A stretch of DNA of 64,000 nt, from positions 2,070,722 through 2,134,721 of the forward strand of contig OY101121.1 of the NCBI GenBank assembly GCA_956465555.1, given 5' to 3'. The notes below the pieces were generated by a model. It had not been told where the DNA came from and made no database searches. It saw only the letters and a list, made by a program, of their open reading frames with translations. Shown here in pieces: positions 32,078 through 61,857 of the stretch (positions are counted from its first letter, which is position 1; each line of letters begins with the position of its first letter). Source of the stretch: Nitzschia sp. pyKryTriq1 (Eukaryota > Bacillariophyta > Bacillariophyceae > Bacillariales > Bacillariaceae). Both the position numbers and the translations under genes were made by a program.

Positions 32078-33583
32078 CTACTGCTTATTATTGTTATTAT
32101 TCAGTAAGTAATCTTCTACCTTCCATACTCGTTCCTGCATGAATTGAACAAACCATTGTTGTAGTCGTTGTTGCCTCGCATCCAACGCCTCGGGACCTTC
32201 GTTCATGATACGTTCCAAAGTGGATTCCAATAGCGTCCAATTGTTCAGTATGACAAAGGGCAAATTATCTTGCAACAGTTTAAAATGATCCTCCGGGTGT
32301 TCGATCACTTGCTGTATTTGGGATAGTAGAGCTTTATCATCCACTTTGGCAGTATTGGTATTGGTATTGGTATTGATATGATGATGATATCGCAAGGCCG
32401 ATTCCAAAATCGGTGCCAGAGCGTTGGGACATTTGTGCGTTTGATATTCCGAATCGGCGACGACCATTACCGGAATGCTTCCCATCCATATACTTTCATA
32501 GAATCGAAAGCATTCGGGATTGTGCCCGGTCGGTGAGAGGGTAAATTTCGACTTGGACAAAATTTCGACATAGGCACTGGAATTGACGTGAAAGACGGGA
32601 TGCATCTGGCGTCGCCATTTTCCTGGAATTTGAATAAAATAAGAATGATCATTGTTCTTGGCGGCGGAGGCACTGGAAGAATATCGAGGGGAGTTCAATA
32701 GCATGTCTTTGAGCTCTTTGCGAGAGGGACTGGTACTTTTGGAAAAGATAGCATTGAATATAAGAGGACGTTGGGATGTTTTTATCATGCCTGTTGTTGA
32801 AGCTGTTGTTGCTACTGCAGATGATGGAAGAATCTTCCGCATCTCCAATGTCGTCATCGTCGTTCCCCCATTATGATACCGTTCGCGAAAGGCTCGATCA
32901 AAATCGTAGCGAGGACCCAAGGGAACAAAGAGTTCCTTTTCATTATTACTATTGCTGGGAGACGACAAAGACGTCGACAATGGTTGTTGTTTGAAATAGT
33001 GTCGAATATCCCCTTGCTGCTTACAATATTCATCATTGATAATCCATGTTTTGCAGTGTGGAGCATGTTCTTGCCGAATTTCTTGTAGTCCCTTTGGATT
33101 GGAAACCAGCAAACACGCTGATGACGATGATTTTTCGCTGGCGAGTCTTTGCAATCGTTGAGGATCGTTGGTAAAATCAAACCATTCCACCTTGTAGTTA
33201 TGCCGACCGTAGAGTTCCAGTTGTTGGGCCTCGAAAAACGAAAATCCCCAGTCTTTCCATCCACGCTTATCCACCATGACTGCAATGGTAATATTATTAT
33301 TCCTTTTGGATTCTCCTCCTCCTCCGCCACTCAACGTCCCGCCTGCTAGTAGCAGTGATGAGGATGCTGACGACGATGACGATGACGATGACGAAAAGGA
33401 CGGAACATCGCCGGGAGACACTTCCACTGTTGCAAACCCTGGAACCACTTTCGAGGATAACCAAATAGAATGAAACGACGCCAGGACCGACAACAGTACA
33501 AGTACCACGGATCCCACGAAACAGGCCCAGTTATTGATATTGCGACGGAACCGTCTCGCCACCGACGAAGACGTCAGAGCCAT
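32078..33583 (-). CDS. GT47 (exostosin/RXYLT1-like) type II membrane glycosyltransferase
   Basis: Intronless, 501 residues; convergent with the LRR gene, 56 bases between stops. Short basic cytosolic head, single TM anchor (about 19-41), Ser/Gly-rich stem to about 95, then a catalytic region. The conserved GT47 block SKFTLSPTGHNPECFRFYESIWMGSIPVMV (about 355-385, split as SKFTLSPTGHNPECFRFYES and IWMGSIPVMV) matches exostosin and RXYLT1/TMEM5, where the Glu of the FYES motif sits in the nucleotide-sugar site. Golgi localisation is inferred. Donor and acceptor are unknown; RXYLT1 transfers xylose and exostosins transfer GlcA or GlcNAc. Asn/Ser homopolymer runs are typical of the organism. Confidence 0.88.
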   Translation of the reverse strand: MALTSSSVARRFRRNINNWACFVGSVVLVLLSVLASFHSIWLSSKVVPGFATVEVSPGDVPSFSSSSSSSSSASSSLLLAGGTLSGGGGGESKRNNNITIAVMVDKRGWKDWGFSFFEAQQLELYGRHNYKVEWFDFTNDPQRLQRLASEKSSSSACLLVSNPKGLQEIRQEHAPHCKTWIINDEYCKQQGDIRHYFKQQPLSTSLSSPSNSNNEKELFVPLGPRYDFDRAFRERYHNGGTTMTTLEMRKILPSSAVATTASTTGMIKTSQRPLIFNAIFSKSTSPSRKELKDMLLNSPRYSSSASAAKNNDHSYFIQIPGKWRRQMHPVFHVNSSAYVEILSKSKFTLSPTGHNPECFRFYESIWMGSIPVMVVADSEYQTHKCPNALAPILESALRYHHHINTNTNTNTAKVDDKALLSQIQQVIEHPEDHFKLLQDNLPFVILNNWTLLESTLERIMNEGPEALDARQQRLQQWFVQFMQERVWKVEDYLLNNNNNKQ

Positions 33584-33805
33584 TATTTTGGATCTTTTTT
33601 GCGGAATGAGTGAGTTAGTGAGTCGTCGTCAGTCAGTCAAGCCCCAAACGACCCTTAGAGCCGTATTTCTCTTGTAATTTATGTTGTATTTTATCGGTGT
33701 ATGACCATAGCGTAGTCTTTGAGCACCCAGTAGAGGAGGAGGCAGAGCAATTAGACTTCTTCGAAGGCGGATCCCAATGATGAGGCGACAAGGATTTCAC
33801 AATAA
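33584..33805. other. Unique flank left of the duplicated block
   Basis: No gene seen. Homology with the second locus begins at about 33806. Confidence 0.5.
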
Positions 33806-33859
33806 TCACTCATCTGTACTGTAGTAGTGTCATTCGTGGGCGAATGGCGAATGAAGGGC

Positions 33860-33866
33860 TATATAA
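33860..33866 (+). promoter_or_regulatory. TATA box (TATATAA)
   Basis: TATATAA about 214 bases before the ATG of the duplicated gene at 34080, conserved at 57615-57621 in the other copy at the same distance. The leader between has no in-frame coding signal. Confidence 0.45.
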
Positions 33867-34079
33867 TGCACTTCAGGTTCCTAGAGCCAATCAAATCACG
33901 ATCCAAAGGGCGAAACCGGCGAACAGTGCAAACCATAACAAAGCAAACCGTACATCAACGGCCATTCACACAACAAAACAAGAACATCATCGCTCACATT
34001 GCTTGGATTTCACCCCACAATTTCCGAATTGACCCACTTTGTTGAACACAACATCATTGCTAATATTGCTACTATCACC

Positions 34080-35066
34080 ATGATTTCCATGATCACCATC
34101 ATTGTTTCCTACCTCGTTGCCATTGTTGCTTCAGCCATTCTTGTTGCGTCCTTCCTTTGCAAGAAGGCCATCGTCGCTCATGCTCGTCCTGTCGCTTCGT
34201 CGGATGAAGTCGTCGTCGCCGCGGACGACGTCGACTACAGCGCTATTCCTTCCATCCGATCATTCGCTCCCATTGTCATCCCGACCCGCCTCTTCAATGG
34301 TATCGAACGTTCTACGCCCGGATCAAAGACCCGAAAGATCCGAATTGGCCACAACACGCCCCTTTCTGTCTTCGATATCCCCGTCTACGCCGTTCACATG
34401 AACGCAAGCGCCGCGAAACAGTACCAAGCTTCGTGGCGACCCAATTTGTCCTCGATCGCGGAGCTTCCTCAACTCCCCGAAAATGGCTTCATGGCTGTCG
34501 GTGAGGCTCCTTCTGCGCCCACCAAGAAGTTGCTTCCAGGACCCAAGAACTTATACTGGGAACTCTGTCGCGAGGCCGATCTTGCCGATGAGAAGAAGAC
34601 GCTCTTTGGTTTTGAAGAGCCAGTTTCGTCCAATGTTTCGAAGAATGTTCCATCCGCACCTTTGAAGAGAAAGAAGGGCGATGTTACGAAAAAGGATCGA
34701 TTTGGTTTTGCTTCTGTCCATCATTTTTGGACTTGCGCGACCGACGATGGCGAGTATTCGGCGCCGGCGGAAGAAGAAAGTGTTGTCGTTGTCGCGGATG
34801 AAGTCGACGACTTGACCTCGCCATTTCCTGATGCCGAATTGGACTTGGAAGACGAAGATGATAATGATATGGAAGATGAGAACCGCAGCGACAACAATGA
34901 AATTTCTATTGTCGACGAGACAACTCCCATTGTTCTTCGTCGATCACCTCGTTTGGCCGCCCGCCAAAATGAAACGCAAGATGTTGTCTCGTCGTCAGAA
35001 TTGTTGGGTCTCGTTTTTTTGAATGGTCGACGACGATCCCTTCGATTGATGCACCGCACTTGTTGA
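34080..35066 (+). CDS. Unknown single-TM acidic protein, duplicate 1
   Basis: 328 residues, intronless. Begins with a strongly hydrophobic segment (1-27, MISMITIIVSYLVA...) ending in CKK, so it is a signal anchor or cleaved signal peptide. The middle contains DIPVYAVHMNAS and LLPGPKNLYWELCREAD stretches and no known domain. A Ser/Glu/Asp-rich region (about 235-285) precedes a basic end with two related motifs, RRSPRLAARQ and RRRSLRLMHRTC. It is one of only two fully intact ORFs duplicated between the loci (partner at 57835-58827). The two proteins differ by about a dozen residues and a two-residue insertion in the TM region. Not recognised; conservation of the frame in both copies suggests selection or recency. 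Confidence 0.75.
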   Translation: MISMITIIVSYLVAIVASAILVASFLCKKAIVAHARPVASSDEVVVAADDVDYSAIPSIRSFAPIVIPTRLFNGIERSTPGSKTRKIRIGHNTPLSVFDIPVYAVHMNASAAKQYQASWRPNLSSIAELPQLPENGFMAVGEAPSAPTKKLLPGPKNLYWELCREADLADEKKTLFGFEEPVSSNVSKNVPSAPLKRKKGDVTKKDRFGFASVHHFWTCATDDGEYSAPAEEESVVVVADEVDDLTSPFPDAELDLEDEDDNDMEDENRSDNNEISIVDETTPIVLRRSPRLAARQNETQDVVSSSELLGLVFLNGRRRSLRLMHRTC

Positions 35067-36155
35067 TTGTTTTGTTGATGAATTACTATGTTTGCTTGAC
35101 TATGATTGCTGCTTGACTGTTTTTGCTTGAATTGTTGGGATTTGTTTTTTTGCTTCGAACGGAAAGGTCCCTCGTCGAGGATCCATTCACCACCAAGATT
35201 TATTGATTTACCTCGCCAGCACATGATCGATTGATTGTTGTTTCTTTTCGTCTTCGGTCCTCTCGTTTCTCTTCGACTATCATATGTGAGCCTCGTTAGT
35301 CCGTCCTAACCACCACGGCAGGGTTTTATAATTCACATCAATATGATTTTCACGAGAATGATGACACTACGAACGATGATAGAGATCAACTGTTTCACAT
35401 CGCATCTACGCAATAATGGCAACCACCACCACCACCACCACCACTACTACTACTACTACCTTATTTGTTTGTAATTTTTCGAATAGATCTATTTATCTGT
35501 ACAGCATTTCCATTTTCTTCCGATCTTGCTTATTTTTAATTTAGATTCTGCCTTTCGATGAACAAGTGCTAGAGGATCAACGCGCATTCTGCGTATCGCG
35601 ATCGATCAATCAATTACTCGTCTTTTCTCGCATTTCAAATTCAATCTCCTCCTCACCGTCATCGTCCAGCAAACCCCGACGTTCTGCCATCGCGCCTGTA
35701 TCTTCCTGCAGAATACCTGCCCGTGGTACACCAGCCGCCGCTGAAGAGTTGTTTCGACCATTGAGCTTTTTCTCAAAATTCACGGCAAACATTTGTGGAG
35801 CCGCCGACATTCAGATGCAAGACATCAGAATCTTTTCCGGCATTCGGAAACTCTTCTTCACACAAACGAAGTCGCCTGTCAAACTCTTTCTCTCGCTTGG
35901 TCAAATCTTTTTCTTTTGATTGAACGAGACCCATTAGTTGAGCCAAAGCCGAGGGGATATCACTTTCACTTTAGGTTTCGGAGACAGTCATGCTTCATAG
36001 GCTTTTGTCGAAGCTACCAAAATAATGAGGTCTTTTCTATCTTGGTACACCCCACGATCACGAAATATCGGAGTATGCACGTTGTTCCGAAAATATAATA
36101 CTCCCATCCAATCGCAAAAGTCTCACGGGATTGGTCCCACCAGTATGTATTTTAT
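35067..36155. other. Non-coding part of block A with CCA/CTA repeat
   Basis: Contains an ACC/ACT triplet repeat at about 35421-35459 whose length differs from the other copy. A relic frame is listed separately. The plus-strand open frame 35566-35919 is an antisense shadow without features. Confidence 0.5.
35773..35934 (-). pseudogene. Relic with BTB/T1-like motif, copy 1
   Basis: A 53-codon minus-strand frame from ATG at 35934 contains a charged coiled-coil run (KDLTKREKEFDRRLRLCEEE) followed by DVLHLNVGGSTNVCREF and then a stop. HLNVGG is the opening of the BTB/T1 (KCTD) fold, normally followed by about 90 more residues that are absent. The frame upstream is closed by a stop. Also present at 59546-59707. 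Probably the broken start of an old BTB gene; an exon of a spliced gene is the alternative. Confidence 0.4.
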
Positions 36156-37322
36156 TCACAGCCACTCGATCGTCTTTTTGGATAGCGTGTATTCCTTAAC
36201 GTCTCCGTCTTTGTAGCGAACACGATGTTTGCCCGTTGTGGGATCAAAATTGTCCACGATGCCCTCATAGAATGTTCCCTTGGCCCAGCGCACCTTGAGT
36301 GCCCGACCAATGAGACTTTCTGGTGGTGCTGACCAGTCCACTGTACCAGTACCGGTACTGCTGCTAGCAGATATTGTTCTCGTCTCGTTCTCTTTTGCTG
36401 TCATTTCATAACTTTCTCGAAGATTGGTAGCCAGTTGAGACCATTCGGAGGAATTCGTCACATCAGTGGATTTCTCAGGACCGTAGACGAGCAAGACGGC
36501 ACAATAATAGATCGTACCACCACCACCACCACCACCACCACTTTTGTCCCGATGGGGGGCTCCACTCAACCAACGAAGAGCCGTTTCGGAATCCACTGGT
36601 TGACATGTATCATCGTCAATCAATGTCCAGGAGGATTGTGACGCTGACGATGATGCCGACGGAGAATTATTATCATGATTGCATATGGAAACCAAAGTAA
36701 CGTAGTGCCCCTCTTCGTCAATGAAATCATCATCTTCGCTGACGTGAAGAATGCCACCCTTGAGCTGCAAGTTACCACTACTACCACCACTACTACCACC
36801 ACCACGAGATGATGAAGACCACAACAACCATTCTGATAAATTCAGCTGCGTAGGTATTGCCATTCCTCGTGGATGTCTCCAAATTCGTTCCCCCTCTGCC
36901 GTGTAGGAAAATCGATCCAAAGTCAGAAAGAAGTAGCGTGGAATTTGTAGAATTTGCATAGATTTGGTGGTCATCCAGTCATCGCCCACCACCACCCAAA
37001 AAGGATCGTCCGCAGCAGCAGCAGCAGCAGCAGTGATATCCTTTGAAAAATCATCGCCATCGCCTACTATTTGTCGTTCTTCTGTATTCAAGTTTTTGGA
37101 TTGCGACTCCCAATCATATCCCTCGAGTCGACTCCCAGCAGTGCCTTGACATAGATCTCGTAAAGCACTCTCGACCGAACATTCTTCTTCTTCTTCTTCA
37201 TCCTTATTCGTAGTAGTAGTTGTTGTTGTAGTAGTTTTACCACCCGACAGGGACAACGGAAAAGGACACGCCATTCGTTTCTCTTTGCCATACTTTCGTC
37301 GAATCAGCAACACAGAGGAAGT

Positions 37323-37354
<32 letters not shown>

Positions 37355-37668
37355 CACGTTTCGATAATCGTTTTCTCCCACAAATCAGTTGTCGCGTTTG
37401 TCCACTCAGCACCAATTAGTCCACTACCGCTTTCCAGGCACTACCTGTACCTGTACCTGTACCTGTACTACCACTGTTTGTGCTTGTAATTTTACTTCTT
37501 GAAGAAGAAGAAGAAGAAGCACGCGAGAGTATTTGCCAGAGCTGGTAGACGGCCGTCGAAACATCTCCCACATCTTGTCGATTCAGCAAACGAGCCTCAT
37601 CTCGTTCCAACAAGTCAAAGAATTTCGTAGGATCCAATGGTGCTGGTGGCGGCGGCGGTGAGGCAGCG
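36156..37668 (-). pseudogene. Truncated USP/Tudor gene (copy of 59929-61857)
   Basis: Collinear with the C-terminal three quarters of the intact ubiquitin-protease gene. Two lesions are visible. A TAA at 37416-37418 replaces the Tyr codon of the intact copy (VVDYLVLSG becomes VVD-stop-LVLSG). At 37668 the sequence switches to the transporter block, so the N-terminal part with the catalytic Cys box is absent. The IPRYFFLTLDRF, GHYVTLVSICNHD and Tudor-like segments remain. Downstream ATGs could still make a fragment, but without the Cys it could not be a protease. Confidence 0.9.
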
Positions 37669-38821
37669 TATAATGGTATTCTCCATGAGGGTAGGTCGTT
37701 GGATGAAGAATTGTGACTGTAGATTTTGCTCGGATCTACTTTTGTGGTCGCCTTGAAGGAGTGGGATTTCTTCAGCTAATTCCACAGGTACTATGTGTGG
37801 ACCGTTGACAAAGACATCCAAAACTTCCAGCAAACTAGCTCGACATGGCAATAGCATCATCGCCATGCCAAGCATAATAGTGATGCCACACCCCAGACGT
37901 CCCAAGAAGAACATCCAGTCGGCATGAATGCTGGCATTTTGGAGAATGTTGCCCTCCGTATCCACGCCCGCATACAAGTACCCCGCCATTCCAAATGTCC
38001 ACATCAAGACAAAGCAACTTCCTACCGCCCCATCGATAACCAGTAGCATCCGTCCCCGACTGGGTTGGATGAGACTACCCTGGATAGGTAGAACATTGAA
38101 GATGCTCAAGAATGACAAAATGATGATTGGAAACGAAAACAAAATGTCGCCAAAGGAAGTACTCCACAAAAGTAACGGTGACGGCAGTGGCGTTACCATA
38201 GCGTGGTTGCAGAGCGCCAAACAGAGCATGGAAACCGACGCAAAGCCAATATAGCAATTGTATCGTAGGCTATGGAGTGATCGTTGCACCAAAAAGGGGC
38301 TCATGGCAAGCAAAATGCCCGAGAGAACCCATTGAGCATTCGGAGGAGCTTTTAACCTCAGAACAATTTCGATAATAGAGGACCAGATGTCTTGAACCAG
38401 CACCATATAGCCAACCAGTACAAACATCAAAAAGACAAAAAGCAACAGGGAAATGAAGTATTCCATGTATTTTCCAAAGGCCACCTTTCCGACTTCCCCA
38501 TAACTGGTCGCTCCCGTGATGCGAGCACAAATGCAGAGAAGATATAGCGACCGTTCCGTCACGATTCCTGCAATGACCATCAAAAGCGTCCCTAGGACGA
38601 TGCCACATTTCGAAAACGCCAAGGGAAGACTCAAAACACCACCTCCAACAATCGTGGCACACAAGTTGAACGTAGCAACCACCACTGGAGATTTTCGATC
38701 CGTCGAATCAAACTCGGAGACGAGAATATCGACTCCTCCCGTCATGTTGTTGTTGTCGTTGTTGTACCGAAGTGCAATAGCTTCTTCTTCGTCGTGTCGT
38801 GGAGGAAGCCTATACTCGGAT
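37669..38821 (-). pseudogene. Truncated amino-acid transporter (copy of 53780-55318)
   Basis: Matches 54053-55214 with one 9-bp difference in an Asn codon run and a few substitutions. Both ends are damaged. The C-terminus after MENTII runs into the reversed USP sequence and stops after a 16-residue foreign tail (ending at 37615), losing the last two to three TM helices. At the 5' end the normal first 30-odd codons are displaced by a 1.2-kb insertion; a substitute open frame reaches an ATG at 38952, and the internal ATG of MTGGVDIL is intact. It could be expressed as a shortened protein but is best read as a pseudogene. Confidence 0.85.
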
Positions 38822-38963
38822 GTTGTAAATATAATACAGTAGTTGGAAGTTAGGTAGAGGCATTTAGTGTGTTTGTGTACTGTACTGGTACCGGTATGAA
38901 GCCGTGCGTGTGTGGGCGTGGTCGTGTCTATGATTTTCATATATTTATACATATCTTTGTTTC

Positions 38964-39027
38964 ATGTATGAGCATACATAAAAATTTGACGGCCATGGCC
39001 GTCAAATTTTTACGTATGCTCATACAT
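38964..39027. repeat. 64-bp near-perfect palindrome
   Basis: Arms of 32 bases centred between 38995 and 38996 (GGCCATGGCC at the centre), 31 of 32 positions paired; outer ends ATGTATGAGCATAC / GTATGCTCATACAT. Would form a cruciform or long hairpin. Only the right arm recurs in the second direct copy near 39440-39462. Confidence 0.92.
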
Positions 39028-39084
39028 TTGGTTTGAACTATCCTCTATTACATATGAACATAAGTAACCGTGCCTGTGTCCCGA

Positions 39085-39256
39085 TCAACAATACGTAATA
39101 TCGCGCGCAAAACTTCAATGGGGTACTTGCCCCATTGTGGTCAACAACACGTAATATCGCGCGCACAGGTTCAATGGGGTACTTGCCCCATTGTGGTCAA
39201 CAACACGTGATATCGCGCTCAACGGTTCAATGTGGTGCTTGCCCCATTCTGGTGGT
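39085..39256. repeat. 56-bp minisatellite with internal hairpins (three units)
   Basis: Units start at 39085, 39141 and 39197, an exact 56-base period. Each contains ACGTAATATCGCGCGC and the 8-bp inverted repeat CAATGGGG / CCCCATTG around TACTTG; the last unit is decayed. Further units occur at about 39523-39620 and a degenerate one at about 39755-39800. Confidence 0.85.
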
Positions 39257-39308
39257 CAGGACTCGCACGACTCCTTGTTTCCTGATTTTGTGGTATCGGT
39301 CATCACGA

Positions 39309-39356
39309 CTTCCTGATTTCGTGGTTCCTGATTTCGTGGTTCCTGATTTCGTGGTC
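39309..39356. repeat. 16-bp tandem repeat
   Basis: Three perfect units of TTCCTGATTTCGTGGT, with a decayed fourth just upstream near 39278-39295. Confidence 0.85.
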
Positions 39357-39372
39357 AATAATCTCAACATAT

Positions 39373-39580
39373 GTATGATTTTCATATATTTATACATACC
39401 TTTGTTGAGTGCCAGAGAGCACAGATGGGGAGCTCAGTCAAATTTTTACGTATGGTTATACATTTGGTTTGAACTATCCCTCTATTACGTATGAACATAA
39501 GTAACCGTGCCTGTGTCCCGATCAACAACACCTAATATCGCGCGCAAAGGTTCAATGGGGTACTTGCCCCATTGTGGTCA
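39373..39580. repeat. Direct repeat of 38929-39139
   Basis: Begins TATGATTTTCATATATTTATACATA in both copies (split motif) and continues through AACATAAGTAACCGTGCC into the 56-bp unit. In this copy the left palindrome arm is replaced by unrelated sequence (GAGTGCCAGAGAGCAC). Confidence 0.8.
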
Positions 39581-39624
39581 ACAACACGTAATATCGTGCT
39601 CAAAGGTTCAATGGGGTGCCCCAA

Positions 39625-39738
39625 CTACTGTACTGCTACTGCTACTACTACTACTACTACTACCAGTAGTAGTACTGCTACTGCTACTGCTACTGCTGCT
39701 ACTACTAGTACTGCTACTGCTACTGCTACTACTACTAA
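39625..39738. repeat. CTACTG/CTACTA microsatellite
   Basis: Imperfect (CTACTG)n and (CTA)n with one internal CAGTAGTAGTA inversion. It interrupts the minisatellite; chance Leu- and Thr-rich frames across it are artefacts. Confidence 0.9.
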
Positions 39739-40007
39739 CCCCATCGTGGCTTCCGCACGTAATATCGTGCGCAAGGTACAGTAGGGGATCTGCCCCATTG
39801 CCCTAAAACGGTTTTCCAGAGTGTTTCATTCACGTCTACTACTTATTGTTACTACTTCCTATCGACTTGAAGGAATGCACTGATTTCTAGGTGTATATTC
39901 GGCGTCTTTGCCCTGAGAAAGGAGAGAGAAGACAAGTCCACAACAACATCCCGCGGAATCTGAGTAGATAGCTACGCCCCCTGTGATTTTGTAGGGGGGG
40001 GGGGTAG

Positions 40008-40167
40008 CAGATGATGTAAGAGATTGTTGGTTGACGACGATGAGGATACAAGCAGCAGAGGTCATCCGAGTATCATAGTTGCATGAGAGGTGATGGGTTT
40101 TGCCACCGTTACGCGATGTTCGATGTTCTCGATTCTTCTCGATCTTCGTGATCCGATCTCGCGCGAC
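40008..40167 (-). pseudogene. Displaced 5' fragment of the duplicated transporter
   Basis: Matches 55263-55427 of the intact locus. It carries the original start (ATG at 40065, MTSAACILIVVNQQSL), now separated from the rest of the gene by the 1.19-kb insertion, after which the frame reads into unrelated sequence. Confidence 0.8.
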
Positions 40168-40189
40168 CCGGCTGTTGCACAGCCGGGTC
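40165..40189. repeat. Perfect hairpin, 10-bp arms
   Basis: GACCCGGCTG and its exact complement flank the loop TTGCA, starting exactly where homology with the other locus ends (the shared sequence stops at about 40167). Confidence 0.85.
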
Positions 40190-40792
40190 CCCATAAAGAT
40201 CCCCCAAAGGTACCCCCGGTCTGTACGTCAGCCGATAGCTAAAGAGTGGATCGCAGCAGGACTCATGCGAAGCTTCCGTCTATCGTCGACCGATTTCATT
40301 CGTGCGCGCCCGTTTCATGCGGACGTTTCTGACCGTTACGAGGAAGAACAAAAATCAAAATCAAGATCTTCTAGAAAAAGAAAAAAACAAAAACTTCTCA
40401 GAGCAGTACTACTCGAGTAGAGAGAGGTTCCATCGTCTCTGTAGATGTGCAGACTACTAGAGAGCACTGATGATCCCGTACGGGTGAAAAGAGTCTACTG
40501 AGTCAATCAGAGGACTGTCTGGCGTGGCTACTATCTCAATATCGTTCCGGCGGAAGAGAGATTCATTGCTCTCGGTAGTAACTAAAATTAGACAGTGCAC
40601 TTTTCCGCTGCTTTACGATATAGACTACTCTCTAGTAGAGTAGAGAGCTAGCTGAATAGTTCTGTAGTTCCACTACTCTACTACTAGAATGAAACAGCGT
40701 TCACTGATCATCGATCAACTGGTAGTACAGCAGCTAGAAATAAAAGTAGCAAGTTTCTTCGAGTATGATAGTACTATGGTACATAATAATAT
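40190..40792. other. Intergenic with dispersed repeat and CTAGTAG simple sequence
   Basis: Contains dispersed-repeat copy 2 and CTACTCTCTAGTAGAG-type palindromes near 40622-40650. No gene. Confidence 0.5.
40564..40615 (+). repeat. Dispersed repeat, copy 2
   Basis: CATTGCTCTCGGTAGTA then AAATTAGACAGTG, CTTTT and CGCTGCTTTA, matching 6393-6457 with a short gap. Confidence 0.6.
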
Positions 40793-45701: not shown

Positions 45702-47244
45702 ATCATACTGTAATGGATATGGAATTGGTATTTTTTGCTTTCGCGTTTTGGTTTCGTTGCGTTTCATCTAGCCTAGTCTAGTCGATCGAAAGGAATGCTC
45801 TGATTCGACCATGTACTGGATTGCGAAGAAGAGAACGCTTGAGTACTGCCTATTGCGCAATAGTCTACTCCTTCTCTCTTCTACACGTGCATCATGCTAT
45901 GGTAGAGAGTGGTACCATGTAGTCTATACTGTAAGGGCGGACTCATCCTCCTCCTCCTCCTTCTCCTCCTCTTCTCTAGAGTTGAAGTGAAGAATCTACT
46001 CCTACTACAGTTAATTTTTTAAGACAGAAATCTCAGTCACGGGTAGTGCAATGACCATTCACGAGCCAGCAGGTCCATGTAGAGAATAGTAGAGTTTCTA
46101 CACACCATGGTATCACGCGTCGCACTTGGGCGTTTTTCCCATCATCATCATTGCAATAAGCTATGTCGCACCCCTACCGCGCAAGATTAGCGGTCTCTTG
46201 CAATTCTCTGTAAATCAATCTCAGGTACGTAGAACCTACGAGTTCCTTAGTACCAGCATTTTTTGAGCCCGAACTTCCCTTCACCGCGATGCAGCGCGTG
46301 AGGGAGGAGTCATAATTTCACAAACACCACGAACACACCATGGCGACTCTCCCATGGCTCCAATCTCTTCAATTAATGTCCATTTGACTTCACTCCTCAT
46401 CTGACTTATCATGCGGACACTACAAGGAACATGTGGTAGCGATTTCCCGGGATCAATTGACTCAGAAGGCCGATTTCTGCTTTTCCATCACATAAATGGA
46501 AGCCAATTTTTCAAATATTTTCACTTGGGCGCTTCCCAGTCACCTACCATTGCTCTTTGAGGCTCCAACATCAACAACAATACAACTACTGAATATACTG
46601 CGGTGGAATTCCTGCCCAAATCTTGATTTGAGGGATGGTAATGGGTTCTTGAGGCAGCTGGGGGTTTTGCAGTGATACCACGGGGTAAAATGCTACTTTT
46701 GGAAGGAGAGACATTCAGATGCTTTAATTGGCGCCATTGGATCCAGCACCTTCACATTAGTCTAGAAGTAATTAATCCCTGCCAAAATTCCAAAGTTTTT
46801 AAATGTAGAGATGATATTGGAAGAGTCCATCGTCTATCATTAAAAATAGCGCGCTGCTGCTGCTGATGTTCCTGCAACACGGTGTATCGCTATGACGCTC
46901 CCGTGTTATTTCATGCGATAAATAGTGTTTTACAGAGAATTGCAAGAGACCGCGAATCTTTCTACGTGGGTTTCTACGGGGTGCGACATAGCTTATGATG
47001 ATGAGTGGTCGGCCGCAACATCATCAAACACCCCACGGACAAAGAGGTCGTCATGCTCTCAAGTCGTACTAAGAAGACACGCACAAAACTGTCGTACGAA
47101 CTTTGAAAGCAAGAAGCAAACCGTAGTCATATCATAGTATTATACTCACTACAGTACAGTACTCTCATCTGTCTGTTCCCAGCACCATCAGTCCTTAGAA
47201 CTACATACATCTTCTAATCAACAGCAAGCAGAAATACAATCATC
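45702..47244. other. Long intergenic region, nothing recognised
   Basis: 1.5 kb with CCT/TCC-rich tract near 45948-45975 and CTAC simple sequence. The 64-codon ORF at 46672 has no recognisable content. No RNA gene was seen by eye. Confidence 0.5.
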
Positions 47245-53779: not shown

Positions 53780-55318
53780 TCAAGCTAGATTTATTATTGT
53801 CTGTGTCGTACAAGCAATTGAAGCCACAACCGATGTCACGATCAGAAACCACGAGAATCCAATCCAAGCTAGACTCTTCTCTACCACAGAGGGATGCGAT
53901 CGTTGAATTTCCAAATAGCATGCGGCCGGTAAAATAAAGGCAATTAAAAAGGCCATGAAACTCCCACACAGGCTCCACACAAAATCGACACCCGGCACGC
54001 GAACGGCGGCCACGTAGCACACGACCGCAATAGCCAACGTCGTGAAGTAATGTATAATGGTATTCTCCATGAGGGTAGGTCGTTGGATGAAGAATTGTGA
54101 CTGTAGATTCTGCTCGGATCTACTTTTGTGGTCGCCTTGAAGGAGTGGGATTTCTTCAGCTAATTCCACAGGTACTATGTGTGGACCGTTGACAAAGACA
54201 TCCAAAACTTCCAGCAAACTAGCTCGACATGGCAATAGCATCATCGCCATGCCAAGCATAATAGTGATGCCACACCCCAGGCGTCCCAAGAAGAACATCC
54301 AGTCGGCATGAATGCTGGCATTTTGGAGAATGTTGCCCTCCGTATCCACGCCCGCATACAAGTACCCCGCCATTCCAAATGTCCACATCAAGACAAAGCA
54401 ACTTCCTACCGCCCCATCGATAACCAGTAGCATCCGTCCCCGACTGGGTTGGATGAGACTACCCTGGATAGGTAGCACATTGAAGATGCTCAAGAATGAC
54501 AAAATGATGATTGGAAACGAAAACAAAATGTCGCCAAAGGAAGTACTCCACAAAAGTAACGGTGACGGCAATGGCGTTACCATAGCGTGGTGGCAGAGCG
54601 CCAAACAGAGCATGGAAACCGACGCAAAGCCAATATAGCAATTGTATCGTAGGCTATGGAGTGATCGTTGCACCAAAAAGGGGCTCATGGCAAGCAAAAT
54701 GCCCAAGAGAACCCATTGAGCATTCGGAGGAGCTTTTAACCTCAGAACAATTTCGATAATAGAGGACCAGATGTCTTGAACCAGCACCATATAGCCAACC
54801 AGTACAAACATCAAAAAGACAAAAAGCAACAGGGAAATGAAGTATTCCATGTATTTTCCAAAGGCCACCTTTCCGACTTCCCCATAGCTGGTCGCTCCCG
54901 TGATGCGAGCACAAATGCAGAGAAGATATAGCGACCGTTCCGTCACGATTCCTGCAATGACCATCAAAAGCGTCCCGAGGACGATGCCACATTTCGAAAA
55001 CGCCAAGGGCAGACTCAAAACACCACCTCCAACAATCGTGGCACACAAGTTGAACGTAGCAACCACCACTGGAGATTTTCGATCCGTCGAATCAAACTCG
55101 GGGACGAGAATATCGACTCCTCCCGTCATGTTGTTGTTGTTGTTGTTGTCGTTGTTGTACCGAAGTGCAATAGCTTCTTCTTCGTCGTGTCGTGGAGGAA
55201 GCCTATGCTCGGATAGCTTATCTGAAAAACTGTATGATGTACTTTCAGAGGCGGTGAAAAGGTATGATATAAGAGATTGTTGGTTGACGACGATGAGGAT
55301 ACAAGCAGCAGAGGTCAT
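53780..55318 (-). CDS. Amino-acid transporter, AAAP/SLC38 family
   Basis: Intronless, 512 residues, ATG at 55318 (the internal ATG at MTGGVDIL is an alternative). About eleven TM helices start near residue 85. TM1 TFNLCATIVGGGVLSLPLAF is the AAAP/SLC38 signature (N-x-x-x-x-G-G/A-G-x-L-x-L-P). Others include SLLLFVFLMFVLVGYMVLVQ, FSFPIIILSFLSIFNVLPIQ and CGITIMLGMAMMLLPCRASL. A hydrophilic loop (EIPLLQGDHKSRSEQNLQSQ) precedes the last three helices. The family moves neutral or cationic amino acids by H+ or Na+ coupling at the plasma or vacuolar membrane. This is the intact parent-like copy of the broken gene at 37669-38821. Confidence 0.9.
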   Translation of the reverse strand: MTSAACILIVVNQQSLISYLFTASESTSYSFSDKLSEHRLPPRHDEEEAIALRYNNDNNNNNNMTGGVDILVPEFDSTDRKSPVVVATFNLCATIVGGGVLSLPLAFSKCGIVLGTLLMVIAGIVTERSLYLLCICARITGATSYGEVGKVAFGKYMEYFISLLLFVFLMFVLVGYMVLVQDIWSSIIEIVLRLKAPPNAQWVLLGILLAMSPFLVQRSLHSLRYNCYIGFASVSMLCLALCHHAMVTPLPSPLLLWSTSFGDILFSFPIIILSFLSIFNVLPIQGSLIQPSRGRMLLVIDGAVGSCFVLMWTFGMAGYLYAGVDTEGNILQNASIHADWMFFLGRLGCGITIMLGMAMMLLPCRASLLEVLDVFVNGPHIVPVELAEEIPLLQGDHKSRSEQNLQSQFFIQRPTLMENTIIHYFTTLAIAVVCYVAAVRVPGVDFVWSLCGSFMAFLIAFILPAACYLEIQRSHPSVVEKSLAWIGFSWFLIVTSVVASIACTTQTIINLA

Positions 55319-55427
55319 CCGAGTATCATAGTTGCATGAGAGGTGATAGGTTTTGCCACCGATACGCGATGTTCGATGTTCTCGACGATTCTTCTCAATC
55401 TTCGTGATCCGATCTCGCGCGACGATG
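54053..55427 (-). repeat. Segmental duplication block B, intact-locus copy
   Basis: 54053-55214 matches 37669-38821 and 55263-55427 matches 40008-40167. The left edge is in mid-gene and is the fusion point to block A in the other locus. Confidence 0.9.
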
Positions 55428-55817
55428 CGTGAATGCGCCTGTCTTTACGAGGTTACTCATTTAGTTACGCGTGGAAGCGGTTGGTGGCCATGAAAATCTT
55501 GTGTCTGGCAGGCGACCGGAAAAGCGCGCACTTCGCGAGCACTTTTATTCCCACTGGGATAAATTTCACGGAGCATCCGGCATCATCCGCGACACTTTTG
55601 GATCATTTTCATCTTCATTCGTCATCCTTTCTTGAGGCGCAGCATCACAGCAGCATTCATGCTAACAAGATCCTCATTTTTCTAATCCATCAGATTGAGT
55701 CATGCGAGCGGATGGACTGTGAATAGAAAGAATTTCAGAAAAGCTTCCACAAATCAGAGGAAGACGCAATTTCATCCCTCCACTCCTCCTCATTCTCATT
55801 ATCTTCGTCCAACAAAG
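55428..55817. other. Divergent intergenic region, not duplicated
   Basis: Between the transporter start (minus) and trypsin start (plus). The open frame upstream of 55818 lacks an ATG and recognisable features. Confidence 0.5.
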
Positions 55818-57260
55818 ATGATGATTCGTTATTTTTATTTGATTATTCCCTTTGTTCTCTCGACCGCATGCGTGAGAGCGTCCGTGGTACCCGGTCCCAG
55901 CAAGAAGGACGACGCATCATTACTTCCCTCGCCTCATTCCCTCCGTGTCGATGAGGATGGAATGCGACGTCGTCGCCGCACTGTGGTGGGTGGAGTGACT
56001 GCCGATCCCGACAGATTCCCCTACTACGTGAGACTAGAAGAAGATGGAGAATTTATTTGCGGTGCGAGTCTGATCCATCCAGACTTTGTATTGACGGCGG
56101 CCCATTGCGTTATAGAAGATCCGTCCTTCCCATTGTTGAAAAATCGGCTGGACGCGATTGTTGGAGGTTACGACTACCAATCTGGAGTGAGACGGCAAGT
56201 GGAAAAGATATTTACATATGTGGCCTATGATGACTGGGTTTCCGTGAGCAACGATATCGCTTTGGTGAAGATCTATCCACCAATGGACAATGCGACTTTC
56301 TTGAACTACACAAATAATCGTACTTGGCTTCAGAATGGGGATTCAGTTACTGGCATCGGTCTTGGTCAAACAGATGGAAACGACGAAGATTCCTTTCCCG
56401 ACCAACTCCAGCAGGTTCAAATTCAAATTGTGGACGAAATCGACTGTGATGACCGATACGATGGCGATATTCATCGCAAGTCGATGCTTTGCGCCATTGG
56501 CGTTGGAAAAGATACCTGTAATGGAGATAGCGGTGGTCCCTTGATTGTCATGGGAGACGATCCCGGCCAGGATGTTCAGGTGGGAATTGTTTCTTGGGGG
56601 GATGTGTGCGGGGACGTCAGTTTACCGGGCGTTTACGCAGACGTCGCCTATTTCGCACCGTGGATCGACAGTATTCTATGTCAGCACTCGGACGAACCGC
56701 CCGAGGGATGCATGGTACGCATGGACACGGCTATTGAACCAATTTATTTGGACCCAACGATCGATACGTGCCGTGACTTTGCCGGTGCCTTTTATACCGA
56801 CTGGTGGCACCAATTTCAACGGTGCGATTGGTTGAGAGAAAAGGCCCGGATTACTCTCTATTGCACAGAATCGCAGGAGGCTTGGGTCACATGCCCACTT
56901 ACTTGCCATGCGTGCACCTATGAGACGGATGATGACTACTACTCCGATTTGAACGACGATACCACCTACTATGATGAAGCATCCTCGCCGGCCCTAGTCA
57001 TCTCCTTCATTGTGGTGACGTTGTTCCTTTGTTGTTTGTTGTGCATCCAGGGTGGCTACTGTGGTTGCTGTAGAGATAAATGTCGCAAGAAATCGCCTCA
57101 ATTGAATCCTCCTCCATCGGAATATCCAAAGAATCCCTCTGAAATGACAGAGGCGGAGGATGGCACCAGCGCCGTTCAGAATCCAGCTCAAACCACAAAG
57201 ACGAGTGACATATTCGACGAGGAAGGAGCTAGCAGAACCAAATCGGACAGCAGCACTTGA
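55818..57260 (+). CDS. Membrane-anchored trypsin-like serine protease
   Basis: Intronless, 480 residues, ATG at 55818. Signal peptide (1-21), propeptide ending in a basic cluster MRRRRRT before VVGG (56-59), then an S1 domain with catalytic His96 (LTAAHC), Asp146 (SNDIALV) and Ser238 (GDSGGP). Asp232, six before the Ser, predicts trypsin specificity for Arg/Lys. After the protease comes a six-Cys segment (CRDFAGAF..., RCDWL, LYC, VTCPLTCHAC; about 330-390) resembling an ShKT-like module, an acidic Tyr-rich stretch, one TM helix (ALVISFIVVTLFLCCLLCI) and a Cys/Lys-rich cytosolic tail. Activation needs cleavage near the RRRR site. This gene is absent from the duplicated locus. Confidence 0.93.
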   Translation: MMIRYFYLIIPFVLSTACVRASVVPGPSKKDDASLLPSPHSLRVDEDGMRRRRRTVVGGVTADPDRFPYYVRLEEDGEFICGASLIHPDFVLTAAHCVIEDPSFPLLKNRLDAIVGGYDYQSGVRRQVEKIFTYVAYDDWVSVSNDIALVKIYPPMDNATFLNYTNNRTWLQNGDSVTGIGLGQTDGNDEDSFPDQLQQVQIQIVDEIDCDDRYDGDIHRKSMLCAIGVGKDTCNGDSGGPLIVMGDDPGQDVQVGIVSWGDVCGDVSLPGVYADVAYFAPWIDSILCQHSDEPPEGCMVRMDTAIEPIYLDPTIDTCRDFAGAFYTDWWHQFQRCDWLREKARITLYCTESQEAWVTCPLTCHACTYETDDDYYSDLNDDTTYYDEASSPALVISFIVVTLFLCCLLCIQGGYCGCCRDKCRKKSPQLNPPPSEYPKNPSEMTEAEDGTSAVQNPAQTTKTSDIFDEEGASRTKSDSST

Positions 57261-57560
57261 GCCATGTAGAGTTCAAGTGCCGTCATAGGCATAAAATTAT
57301 TCTTTAGTCAAGATTTAAAACGGAGAATCGGTCTAGCATGGTCCAAACAATTATACTGGTAGTAGTTAGCAGTTTGACAGTCCACCTGCCTGACTAGTAG
57401 CATCGCTTAGTATAACATGCGAATACTCGCACTTGACGCGACCTTCTGAGCTCGCAATGAGAAAAAATAATGAGTACAGTGTACGTAGTATGTGTAGTAC
57501 ATAGCTCGGCTTCGTTCGTCGTTCGCTCGTATCGTCTTCCGTCTTCACCAGAGAATGACG
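57261..57560. other. Intergenic, unique
   Basis: 3' flank of the trypsin gene. Nothing recognised before the block A homology begins at about 57561. Confidence 0.5.
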
Positions 57561-57614
57561 TCACTCATCTGTTCTGTGGTAGTGTCATTCGTGGGCGAAT
57601 GGCGAACGAAGGGC

Positions 57615-57621
57615 TATATAA
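57615..57621 (+). promoter_or_regulatory. TATA box (TATATAA)
   Basis: Same motif and same spacing to the ATG (57835) as in the other copy. Confidence 0.45.
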
Positions 57622-57834
57622 TGCACTTCAGGTTCCTAGAGCCAATCAAATCACGATCCAAAGGGCGAAACCGGCGAACAGTGCAAACCATAACAAAGCA
57701 AACCGTACATCAACGGCCATTCACACAACAAAACAAGAACATCATCGCTCACATTGCTTTGATTTCACCCCACAATTTCCGAATTGACCCACTTTGTTGA
57801 ACACAACATCATTGCTAATATTGCTACTATCACC

Positions 57835-58827
57835 ATGATTTCCATGATCACCATCATTGTTTCCTACCTCGTTGCCATTGTTGCTTCAGTCATTCTTGTT
57901 GCGTCCTTCCTTTTCCTTTGCAAGAAGGCCATCGTCGCTCATGCTCGTCCTGTCGCTTCGTCGGATGAAGTCGTCGTCGCCGCGGAACACGTCGACTACA
58001 GCGCTATTCCTTCCATCCGATCATTCGCTCCCATTGTCGTCCCGACCCGCCTCTTCAATGGCATCGAACGTTCTACGCCCGGATCAAAGACCCGAAAGAT
58101 CCGAATTGGCCACAACACGCCCCTTTCTGTCTTCGATATCCCCGTCTACTCCGTTCACATGAACGCAAGCGCCGCGAAACAGTACCAAGCTTCGTGGCAA
58201 CCCAATTTGTTCTCGATCGCGGAGCTTCCTCAACTCCCTGAAAATGGCTTCATGGCTGTCAGTGAAGCTCCTTCTGCGCCCACCAAGAAGTTGCTTCCAG
58301 GACCCAAGAACTTATACTGGGAACTCTGTCGCGAGGCCGATCTTGCCGATGAGAAGAAGACGCTCTTTGGATTTGAAGAGCCAGTTTCGTCCAATGTTTC
58401 GAAGTATGTTCCATCCGCACCTTTGAAGAGAAACAAGGGCGATGTTACGAAAAAGGATCGATTTGGTTTTGCTTCTGTCCATCATTTTTGGACTTGCGCG
58501 ACCGACGATGGCGAGTATTCGGCGCCGGCGGAAGAAGAAAGTGTTGTCGTTGTCGCGGATGAAGTCGACGACTTGTCCTCGCCATTTCCTGATGCCGAAT
58601 TGGACTTGGAAGACGAAGATGATAATGATATGGAAGATGAGAACCGCAGCGACAACAATGAAATTTCTATTGTCGACGAGACAACTCCCATTGTTCTTCG
58701 TCGATCACCTCGTTTGGCCGCCCGCCAAAATGAAACGCAAGATGTTGTCTCGTCGTCAGAATTGTTGGGTCTCGTTTTTTTGAATGGTCGACGACGATCC
58801 CTTCGATTGATGCACCGCACTTGTTGA
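57835..58827 (+). CDS. Unknown single-TM acidic protein, duplicate 2
   Basis: 330 residues, ATG at 57835, intronless. It differs from the copy at 34080-35066 by a 6-bp insertion giving an extra Phe-Leu in the hydrophobic N-terminal segment and by about a dozen substitutions (for example ADD to AEH, VIP to VVP, YAV to YSV, GEA to SEA, KKG to NKG). Otherwise the same features: hydrophobic head, DIPVYSVHMNAS, LLPGPKNLYWELCREAD, acidic Ser-rich middle and the RRSPRLAARQ / RRRSLRLM basic motifs. Function unknown. Confidence 0.75.
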   Translation: MISMITIIVSYLVAIVASVILVASFLFLCKKAIVAHARPVASSDEVVVAAEHVDYSAIPSIRSFAPIVVPTRLFNGIERSTPGSKTRKIRIGHNTPLSVFDIPVYSVHMNASAAKQYQASWQPNLFSIAELPQLPENGFMAVSEAPSAPTKKLLPGPKNLYWELCREADLADEKKTLFGFEEPVSSNVSKYVPSAPLKRNKGDVTKKDRFGFASVHHFWTCATDDGEYSAPAEEESVVVVADEVDDLSSPFPDAELDLEDEDDNDMEDENRSDNNEISIVDETTPIVLRRSPRLAARQNETQDVVSSSELLGLVFLNGRRRSLRLMHRTC

Positions 58828-59928
58828 TTGTTTTGTTGATGAATTACTATGTTTGCTTGACTATGATTGCTGCTTGACTGTTTTTGCTTGAATTGTTGGG
58901 ATTTGTTTTTTTGCTTCGAACGGAAAGGTCCCTCGTCGAGGATCCATTCACCACCAAGATTTATTGATTTACCTCGCCAGCACATGATCGATTGATTGTT
59001 GTTTCTTTTCGTCTTCGGTCCTCTCGTTTATCTTCGACTATCATATGTGAGCCTCGTTAGTCCGTCCTAACCACCACGGCAGGGTTTTATAATTCGCATC
59101 AATATGATTTTCAAGAGAATGATGACACTACGAACGATGATAGAGATCAACTGTTTCACATCACATCTACGCAATAATGGCAACCACCACCACTACCACT
59201 ACCACTACCACTACTACTACTACTACTGCTACCTTATTTGTTTGTAATTTTTCGAATAGATCTATTTATCTGTACAGCATTTCCATTTTCCTCCGATCTT
59301 GCTTATTTTTATTTTAGATTCTGCCTTTCGATGAACAAGTGCTAGAGGATCAACGCGTATTCTGCGTATCGCGATCGATCCATCAATTACTCGTCTTTTC
59401 TCGCATTTCAAATTCAATCTCCTCCTCACTGTCATCGTCCAGCAAACCCCGACGTTCTGCCATCGCGCCTGTATCTTCCTGCAGAATACCTGCCCGTGGT
59501 ACACCAGCCACCGCTGAAGAGTTGTTTCGACCATTGAGCTTTTTCTCAAAATTCACGGCAAACATTTGTGGAGCCGCCGACATTCAGATGCAAGACATCA
59601 GAATATTTTCCGGCATTCGGAAACTCTTCTTCACACAAACGAAGTCGCCTGTCAAACTCTTTCTCTCGCTTGGTCAATTCTTTTTCTTTTGATTGAACGA
59701 GACCCATTAGTTGAGCCAAAGCCGAGGGGATATCACTTTCACTTCAGGTTTCGGAGACAGTCATGCTTCATAGGCTTTTGTCGAAGCTACCAAAATAATG
59801 AGGTCTTTTCTATCTTGGTACACCCCACGATCACGAAATATCGGAGTATGCACGTTGTTCCGAAAATATAATACTCCCATCCAATCGCAAAAGTCTCACG
59901 GGATTGGTCCCACCAGTATGTATTTTAT
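58828..59928. other. Non-coding part of block A, second copy
   Basis: Parallel to 35067-36155. The CCA/CTA repeat at about 59179-59232 is longer here. Contains the BTB-like relic listed separately. Confidence 0.5.
59546..59707 (-). pseudogene. Relic with BTB/T1-like motif, copy 2
   Basis: Same 53-codon frame as 35773-35934, with DL to EL and D to Y changes. LHLNVGG is kept and the stop is in the same place, so the break predates the duplication. Confidence 0.4.
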
Positions 59929-61857
59929 TCACAGCCACTCGATCGTCTTTTTGGATAGCGTGTATTCCTTAACGTCTCCGTCTTTGTAGCGAACACGATG
60001 TTTGCCCGTTGTGGGATCAAAATTGTCCACGATGCCCTCATAGAATGTTCCCTTGGCCCAGCGCACCTTGAGTGCCCGACCAATGAGACTTTCTGGTGGT
60101 GCTGACCAGTCCACTGTACCAGTACCGGTACCAGTACTGCTGCTAGCAGATATTGTTCTCGTCTCGTTCTCTTTTGCTGTCATTTCATAACTTTCTCGAA
60201 GATTGGTAGCCAGTTGAGACCATTCGGAGGAATTCGTCACATCAGTGGATTTCTCAGGACCGTAGACGAGCAAGACGGCACAATAATAGATCGTACCACC
60301 ACCACCACCACTTTCGTCCCGATGGGGGGCTCCACTCAACCAACGAAGAGCCGTTTCGGAATCCACTGGTTGACATGTATCATCGTCAATCAATGTCCAG
60401 GAGGATTGTGATGCTGACGATGATGCCGACGAAGAATTATCATCATGATTGCATATGGAAACCAAAGTAACGTAGTGCCCCTCTTCGTCAATGGAATCAT
60501 CATCTTCGCTGACGTGAAGAACGCCACCCTTGAGCTGCAAGTTACCACTACTACCACCACTACCACCACTACCACCACCACCACGAGATGATGAAGACCA
60601 CAACAACCATTCTGATAAATTCAGCTGCGTAGGTATTGCCATTCCTCGTGGATGTTTCCAAATTCGTTCCCCCTCTGCCGTGTAGGAAAATCGATCCAAA
60701 GTCAGAAAGAAGTAGCGTGGAATTTGTAGAATTTGCATAGATTTGGTGGTCATCCAGTCATCGCCCACCGCCACCCAAAAAGGATCGTCCGCAGCAGCAG
60801 CAGTGATATCCTTTGAAAAATCATCGCCATCGCCCACTACTTGTCGTTCTTCTGTATACAAGTCTTTGGATTGCGACTCCCAATCATATCCCTCGAGTCG
60901 ACTCCCAGCAGTGCCTTGACATAGATCTCGTAAAGCACTCTCGATCGAACATTCTTCTTCTTCTTCTTCTTCTTCTTCATCCTTATTCGTAGTAGTAGTA
61001 GTAGCAGTAGTAGTAGCAGTAGTTTTACCACCCGACAAGGACAAAGGAAAAGGACACGCCATTCGTTTCTCTTTGCCATACTTTCGCCGAATCAGCAACA
61101 CAGAGGAAGTATCATCATCATCATCATCATCATCATGATCATCAAGTTTCGATAATCGTTTTCTGCCACAAATCACTTGTCGCGTTTGTCCACTCAGCAC
61201 CAAGTAATCCACTACCGCTTTCCAGGCACTACCTGTACCTGTACCTGTACCTGTACTACCACTGTTTGTGCTTGTACTTGTGCTTCTTGAAGAAGAAGAA
61301 GAAGAAGAAGGAGAAGAACGCGAGAGTATTTGCCACAGCTGGTAGACGGCCGTCGAAACGTCTCCCACATCTTGTGGATTCAGCAAACGAGCCTCATCTC
61401 GTTCCAACAAGTCATAGAATTTCGTAGGATCCAATGGTGGTGGTGGTGGTGGTGGCGGCGGCGGTGAGGCAGCGGAATGATCCTCCTGTTCAAATTCCTG
61501 GTCCTCCTCATTTTGCTTCAAGGCACACAATACTCTGCCCAATTCTTCTATCAGAGGATGATCTCCACTGCGAATATTGTCAGTATGAATAGTATTGCCT
61601 GTATGATTATTACGTTCGTATAATATCATGGATGAATTATTCTGACTGGATTTGGATTGGGATTGGGATATGGAAACGAATAATTCCACCAAAGGAGGTA
61701 CGCAATGTGCCAACAACTGCAAGGCGCAGGAAATATGGCAGGACACTCCCGATACATTTTCAATCCCGCGGGCCTGATTCTTCTTCTTCTTCTTCGTCGT
61801 CGTCATGGTCGTCGTCGTCGTCGTGACTATTACCGGTATGGTCGAATGGTCGACCAT
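59929..61857 (-). CDS. Ubiquitin-specific protease-like protein with C-terminal Tudor-like domain
   Basis: 642 residues from the ATG at 61857 (ATG at 61806 is an alternative); the frame is open upstream only to a GTG. Divergent peptidase C19: the Cys box is GIENVSGVSCHISCALQLL (about 31-49, Cys40), IPRYFFLTLDRFSY matches the USP strand before the His box, and the His box is LKGGVLHVSE...GHYVTLVSI with His461. The C-terminal 50 residues (ALKVRWAKGTFYEGIVDNFD, GKHRVRYKDGDVKEYTL) are a Tudor/Royal-type barrel as in PDS5 or plant Tudor proteins. Pro, Ser, Thr-Gly, Asp and Glu runs separate the domains. The Asn normally three after the Cys in the Cys box is Ser here, so activity is uncertain. Function: probable deubiquitylation of chromatin-linked substrates (inference). 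Confidence 0.8.
   Translation of the reverse strand: MVDHSTIPVIVTTTTTTMTTTKKKKKNQARGIENVSGVSCHISCALQLLAHCVPPLVELFVSISQSQSKSSQNNSSMILYERNNHTGNTIHTDNIRSGDHPLIEELGRVLCALKQNEEDQEFEQEDHSAASPPPPPPPPPPLDPTKFYDLLERDEARLLNPQDVGDVSTAVYQLWQILSRSSPSSSSSSSRSTSTSTNSGSTGTGTGTGSAWKAVVDYLVLSGQTRQVICGRKRLSKLDDHDDDDDDDDTSSVLLIRRKYGKEKRMACPFPLSLSGGKTTATTTATTTTTNKDEEEEEEEEECSIESALRDLCQGTAGSRLEGYDWESQSKDLYTEERQVVGDGDDFSKDITAAAADDPFWVAVGDDWMTTKSMQILQIPRYFFLTLDRFSYTAEGERIWKHPRGMAIPTQLNLSEWLLWSSSSRGGGGSGGSGGSSGNLQLKGGVLHVSEDDDSIDEEGHYVTLVSICNHDDNSSSASSSASQSSWTLIDDDTCQPVDSETALRWLSGAPHRDESGGGGGTIYYCAVLLVYGPEKSTDVTNSSEWSQLATNLRESYEMTAKENETRTISASSSTGTGTGTVDWSAPPESLIGRALKVRWAKGTFYEGIVDNFDPTTGKHRVRYKDGDVKEYTLSKKTIEWL

Follow-up and report, generated by a model that had tools for sequence, protein, structure and literature searches.

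Analysis of a 64,000-nucleotide window of Nitzschia sp. pyKryTriq1 (contig OY101121.1; C7:2070722–2134721) revealed an accidental permuted duplication of a known kind. Two blocks of a gene cluster at 54–61 kb of the window, designated block A and block B, are copied at 33.8–40.2 kb on the same strand and in swapped order, where they are set end to end at a single joint (Table 1). The right edge of the copy falls in the central hairpin of a miniature inverted-repeat transposable element (MITE) whose left half is gone, a feature that goes beyond the preliminary description of the window. A single copying event appears to be the simplest reading, and we see about an even chance that it was non-homologous, with template switching or the capture of two fragments filling a break in the MITE.

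Extent, direction and age of the copy

The window was compared with itself by BLAST, and genome-wide searches covered the 40.65-Mb assembly (20 contigs). The copy of block A carries 71 mismatches in 3845 aligned positions (98.15% identity, 3774/3845) and 10 indels, while the two pieces of the block B copy together carry 15 mismatches in 1310 positions (98.9% identity, 1295/1310, indels excluded). Over A and B, copy and donor show 86 differences in 5155 positions (1.67%), a similarity far beyond chance, with a BLAST E value of 0 for the two main pieces. Self-BLAST and alignment bore out the edges that the preliminary description had given for block A, as well as the order it reported, with A before B in the copy, B before A at the donor and both on one strand. 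Block B was copied, as that description held, but its copy is not contiguous, being split by a 1189-bp insert, and its donor end lies at 55423. The two loci are indeed close copies, but with a divergence of about 1.7% the recency claimed for the event is relative and was overstated. The lengths of all 10 block A indels (6, 9 or 12 bp) are divisible by three; one indel is intergenic within a hexamer repeat, and slippage in short repeats is their likely source.

The 2137 bp between the donor blocks, with the trypsin gene, are absent from the copy (55424–57560), in agreement with the earlier claim. Genome-wide, this interval matched only itself, except for its last 56 bp, which recur in three copies of a dispersed family on C9. 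Outside donor and copy, block B gave just five short matches of 30–58 bp. The genome search with block A scored 40 of 51 candidates, and its statements on occurrence elsewhere hold for those scored; on this basis, donor and copy were the only loci found for block B and for the latter half of block A, short and simple-repeat matches excepted.

Comparison of the two genes cut by the joint revealed full-length versions of both at the donor and shortened ones in the copy. The copied transporter is without the last 90 of 512 residues, its reading passing out of frame into block A, while the hydrolase copy retains only positions 110–242 of the UCH profile and contains one in-frame stop. Because both genes are complete at 54–61 kb and truncated in the copy, the former locus is the donor, and gene integrity rules out 33.8–40.2 kb in that role. 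The shared codons of the transporter contain 3 nonsynonymous and 7 synonymous differences, a nonsynonymous count below that expected under free drift of both copies (p = 0.002), with a marginal result if only the donor was constrained (p = 0.04). For the hydrolase fragment (22.5 nonsynonymous and 15.5 synonymous differences, rounded for the test), the data deviate from a model with both copies free (p = 0.008) but agree with drift of the copy only (p = 0.36); constraint was not indicated for the family gene described below (11 nonsynonymous and 4 synonymous differences; p = 0.49 and 0.89). We take the copy to be mostly decaying fragments, with the chimeric truncated transporter open reading frame (ORF) possibly under constraint. 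If the mutation rate of Phaeodactylum tricornutum, 4.77e-10 per site per generation (PMC6604790), applies here, the divergence corresponds to about 2e7 generations per lineage as an order of magnitude.

Block A opens with ~2 kb of the dispersed family, a point that the preliminary description had missed; further copies lie at C7:2038667, on C9 and partly on other contigs. At the donor, the family part spans 57505–59568 and includes a gene at 57784–58827 (+ strand, about 350 amino acids), for which no Pfam match was obtained at E 0.01. On C9 (C9:500000–519999; L051 and L052), the family forms a tandem array of ~7.1-kb units with more than 99% identity. The element begins at 57505, where five of six further copies start and from which they continue through 57561, the sixth starting at 57551; the stretch 57505–57560 is thus ancestral. 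Of the six family sequences compared, copy and donor group together as sisters. When their 32 differences in the family part were polarised against the copy at C7:2035000–2044000 (L053) alone, 17 were assigned to the donor branch and 10 to the copy branch, with 5 left unassigned, and the majority of four outgroups gave 21, 8 and 3. The donor has thus changed more than the copy in this part, and the copy looks nearer to the other members; the direction given by gene integrity is unaffected.

The insert in the block B copy is composed largely of dispersed and tandem repeats and replaces 49 bp of donor sequence; it would have divided the copy after the original event. Beside it, ~30 bp were possibly lost between the imperfect repeats ATGATGTA and ATGATATA (40011–40018 compared with 55236–55275, read by eye), in which case the insert proper may have replaced only ~20 bp.

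The joint, the outer edges and the half MITE

At the joint, A and B adjoin without filler, and edge comparison confirmed that donor position 61474 is linked to 54053 with exactly one shared base, as had been described. When a 601-base stretch centred on the joint region was searched, three genome matches resulted, one spanning the joint and two being the donor halves; the third locus with an intact A–B order, named earlier as a finding that would refute the reading, was not found with this probe in the 40.65-Mb assembly. At the left edge, the similarity ends sharply at 33806, the preceding base differs from the donor, and no bases are shared on the donor side. At the right join, the overlap is GAC with a MITE copy on C2 and CGAC with one on C8, so that the shared bases number one at the joint, three to four at the right edge (with the two MITE copies as a proxy for the lost target) and zero on the donor side of the left edge. 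No exact direct repeat of at least 4 bp was found at the block edges.

The right edge at 40167 lies inside a perfect 11-bp hairpin (40165–40189). A search for the hairpin core (loop open, up to 2 mismatches) found three places in the genome, all without mismatch, and the other two lie in the middle of MITEs that are 148 and 140 bp long and carry the terminal inverted repeat (TIR) CACTCTTTAGCTATCGGCTGA. The stretch 40165–40248 is 98.8% identical over 84 bp to the intact MITE at C2:1652836–1652996. The family is ~140–150 bp long with 21-bp TIRs, and further intact members are located at C3:1473822–1473972, C3:1281782–1281926 and C8:1368110–1368252. In the four intact MITEs read, the flanking 10-bp repeats are exact in two and imperfect in two; we take repeats of this length to be those of Mutator-like elements. 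The family has at least 57 genome matches (37 scored candidates), many of them one half only, and both TIRs (within four errors) were present at 4 of 12 loci read, the other eight having a single TIR within the short stretch examined. Hairpin breakage was not supported as the origin of the half MITEs elsewhere; several one-TIR loci run into shared sequence that by eye resembles the interior of longer elements.

BLAST of two intact MITEs found no further MITE piece in the window and so no left half, and left-half probes gave nothing there or scattered 3- to 4-error matches only. Besides 40228–40248, the TIR within 5 errors occurs in the window just once, as a 5-error match at 963–981. No 8-, 9- or 10-mer of the right MITE flank (up to 1 mismatch) is present in 32500–34200, and no target duplication was thus found. 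The MITE itself had inserted into a second repeat, since five other loci keep the first bases of that repeat, CGCAGAACAACGA or a sequence one letter off, ahead of the position at which the MITE stands here. The end of this second repeat is absent from the left flank of the copy, with matches within 4 errors at 36212 and beyond.

Table 1. Features of the copy, the donor and their genes (window coordinates)
Feature	Position	Strand	Evidence
Block A copy: hydrolase gene truncated on 5' side, family gene open	33806..37668	+	alignment, reading frames
Truncated transporter ORF in copy	37615–38952	-	Aa_trans profile 4–337/410
Joint of donor 61474 with donor 54053; one base (G) ambiguous	37668..37669	.	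edge comparison; single spanning genome match
Copy of block B, first piece (=54053–55214)	37669..38821	+	11 mismatches/1153 positions
Dispersed-repeat insert: palindrome, minisatellite, TAC repeats, terminal 49-bp repeat	38822..40010	.	repeat searches
Copy of block B, second piece (=55264–55423), transporter start region	40011..40167	+	4 mismatches/157 positions
Right half of MITE: central hairpin, TIR CACTCTTTAGCTATCGGCTGA, left half absent	40165..40248	+	BLAST to intact copies, hairpin, TIR probes
Amino-acid transporter	53780–55318	-	Pfam Aa_trans, profile 4–410/410 at donor
Donor block B: most of the transporter gene and its start region	54053..55423	+	self-BLAST; Pfam Aa_trans
Interval absent from copy: trypsin gene and first 56 bp of family element	55424..57560	+	Pfam Trypsin; family edge
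Trypsin-type serine protease	55695–57260		Pfam Trypsin, E 9.9e-46
Donor block A: family gene and 3' three quarters of hydrolase gene	57561..61474	+	self-BLAST, alignment, Pfam
Ubiquitin-hydrolase/Tudor-like gene (ORF)	59929–62004	-	Pfam UCH, profile 2–242/254 at donor

Possible routes to the copy

There is no significant difference in divergence between A and B (71/3845 versus 15/1310, Fisher p = 0.10) or, within A, between the family part and the remainder (p = 0.28, approximate, with totals entered by hand). Because the A–B joint has no filler, the divergences are similar, and copy and donor are sisters in the family, we infer a single event; two independent insertions are unlikely given the same abutment and divergences. 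A break would have occurred inside the MITE, the presumed target, 13.9 kb upstream of the donor, with loss of the left MITE half, and two same-strand donor pieces would have been copied, A and then B, and set end to end in the break. The likeliest route may be repair of the broken end by template switching, of the type of microhomology-mediated break-induced replication (MMBIR) or fork stalling and template switching (FoSTeS), or capture of two fragments from the same locus, with joins that would need just 0 to 4 matching bases. We favour this route over a circle because the 2137-bp gap costs no extra step in it. Two of the edges lie in repeats (the family element and the MITE), as MMBIR endpoints lie near low-copy repeats. 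Several points weigh against it. Template switching is of low processivity, and one of the copied pieces, at 3.9 kb, is long for it. The joint links the exact outer ends of a 7.4-kb span, which, we concede, a circle or tandem gives free, while two pieces from one locus would by our own reckoning land in this order and orientation about 1 time in 4 without a circle. Furthermore, the joint shares one base, compared with the 2–5 bp of the founding MMBIR data (PMC2621351), and would suit end joining equally. Template switching or two-fragment capture accounts for the data at least as well as a circle or a tandem.

The joint does connect the ends of the 7.4-kb segment head to tail, as the preliminary description stated; the circle or tandem proposed there is possible but, with the 2137-bp gap, not proven. 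A circle of 54053–61474, closed by end joining, then cut in the interval from B to A, shortened by 2.1 kb and inserted upstream, would leave the same-strand order swap and fused outer ends that constitute the signature published for such events (PMC7450558, PMC7188851), and the one-base overlap resembles closing joints published for them (PMC7450558). The missing trypsin interval had been regarded as expected from an opened circle. However, the gap sits badly with a circle cut once, because the outer ends of the copy should then abut in the donor, and they do not: between 55423 and 57561 lie 2137 bp, of which no fewer than 56 are ancestral, versus 1–27 bp in the human cases described (PMC7450558), and we regard the circle as possible, though on balance doubtful. 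That the trypsin interval entered the donor only once the copy had been made was rejected as a full explanation of the gap, since 57505–57560 is ancestral (5/6 family copies); the rest of the interval possibly arrived later. A tandem duplication of 54053–61474, from which an internal A–B piece was copied before the tandem collapsed, would yield the joint directly and, the internal piece being arbitrary, would need no end loss for the gap. This route appears improbable, requiring three events, and self-BLAST of the window found no tandem remnant beside the donor, with neither a second B after 61474 nor an A before 54053.

The half MITE could also be the right end of a Pack-MULE-like element with A and B as cargo, as a MITE end with an intact TIR adjoins the block and intact family members carry the 10-bp flanking repeats, exact in two of four. 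This capture is largely refuted and its probability is close to negligible: no second TIR is near the copy, the only other match in the window being that at 963–981, the 9–11 bp target duplication is missing from 32500–34200, and on its left the copy starts in family sequence rather than at a transposon end. The edges have no exact direct repeat of at least 4 bp and the MITE flank is not repeated on the left side, which makes a transposase product unlikely. Helitrons have TC at the 5' end and a hairpin followed by CTRR at the 3' end; the right-edge hairpin has CCCCATAAAG after it instead of CTRR and forms the middle of a TIR MITE, and the Helitron reading was rejected. An assembly misjoin at 37668/37669 might be suspected, the joint being read from the assembly alone, but copy-specific differences lie on both sides of it and no other home in the assembly was found for either copied piece among the block A candidates scored, making such an error highly unlikely.

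Surroundings and comparison with known systems

Beside the donor cluster, 51823–53304 encodes a seven-transmembrane receptor-like sequence (Pfam 7tm_1, 29.3 bits versus a cut-off of 30.5). The ORF at 9677–10936 is presumably aldo-keto-reductase-like, with an N-terminus that resembles a plastid leader by eye and would point to a stramenopile alga, perhaps a diatom. Inverted repeats at 46156–46217 and 46926–46996 (82% by self-BLAST, ~0.8 kb apart) are possibly the ends of a DNA transposon, and Rfam at the gathering threshold gave 0 matches in the window. The start of contig C3 (C3:1–564; L057 1–564) consists of tandem copies of a 54-bp unit and is perhaps subtelomeric.

The present locus is a base-resolved permuted duplication in an algal-looking genome, in which the donor, the joint and one side of the target are recognisable. 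It resembles Pack-MULE and Helitron capture, as generally understood, in that gene fragments lie beside a DNA-transposon end, but here neither paired ends nor a target duplication turned up. One could speculate from this one locus that MITE hairpins are break sites that trap kilobase-scale pieces of nearby genes through circles or template switching, with some chimeric or truncated genes, of which the transporter copy is an example, kept by selection, which we consider a long shot and which the half MITEs at other loci did not support; if it is true that such hairpins recur as targets, they would provide a natural series on the capture of gene pieces by broken ends.

In MMBIR as set out by Hastings 2009, junctions have 2–5 bp of microhomology and endpoints lie near low-copy repeats (PMC2621351). 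The copy resembles these MMBIR/FoSTeS products in its discontinuous pieces, little or no homology at the joins and ends near repeats, and differs in its one-base joint and in having no inverted piece and no triplication. Duplication mediated by extrachromosomal circular DNA (eccDNA) was treated by Takahashi and Innan 2020, with yeast and cattle cases cited and a tandem remnant at the donor given as a false-positive pattern (PMC7188851). The swapped syntenic order, the two parallel dot-plot lines and the lack of a flanking tandem remnant are all shared with their eccDNA pattern, whereas the missing middle interval is not (PMC7188851). The human circular-DNA-mediated segmental duplications (cSDPs) of Chicote 2020 have donors of 22–3918 kb, with losses and gains of 1–27 bp at the base-resolved junctions, and the five resolved closing joints are directly adjacent or have one inserted base or two-base microhomology (PMC7450558). 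Like these cSDPs, the copy has two same-strand blocks in swapped order with fused outer ends, a very short closing overlap, and breakpoints mostly in repeats; unlike them, its donor spans 7.4 kb, 2137 bp are missing between the blocks, and half a MITE was lost at the target (PMC7450558). Swapped order alone is no proof of a circle.

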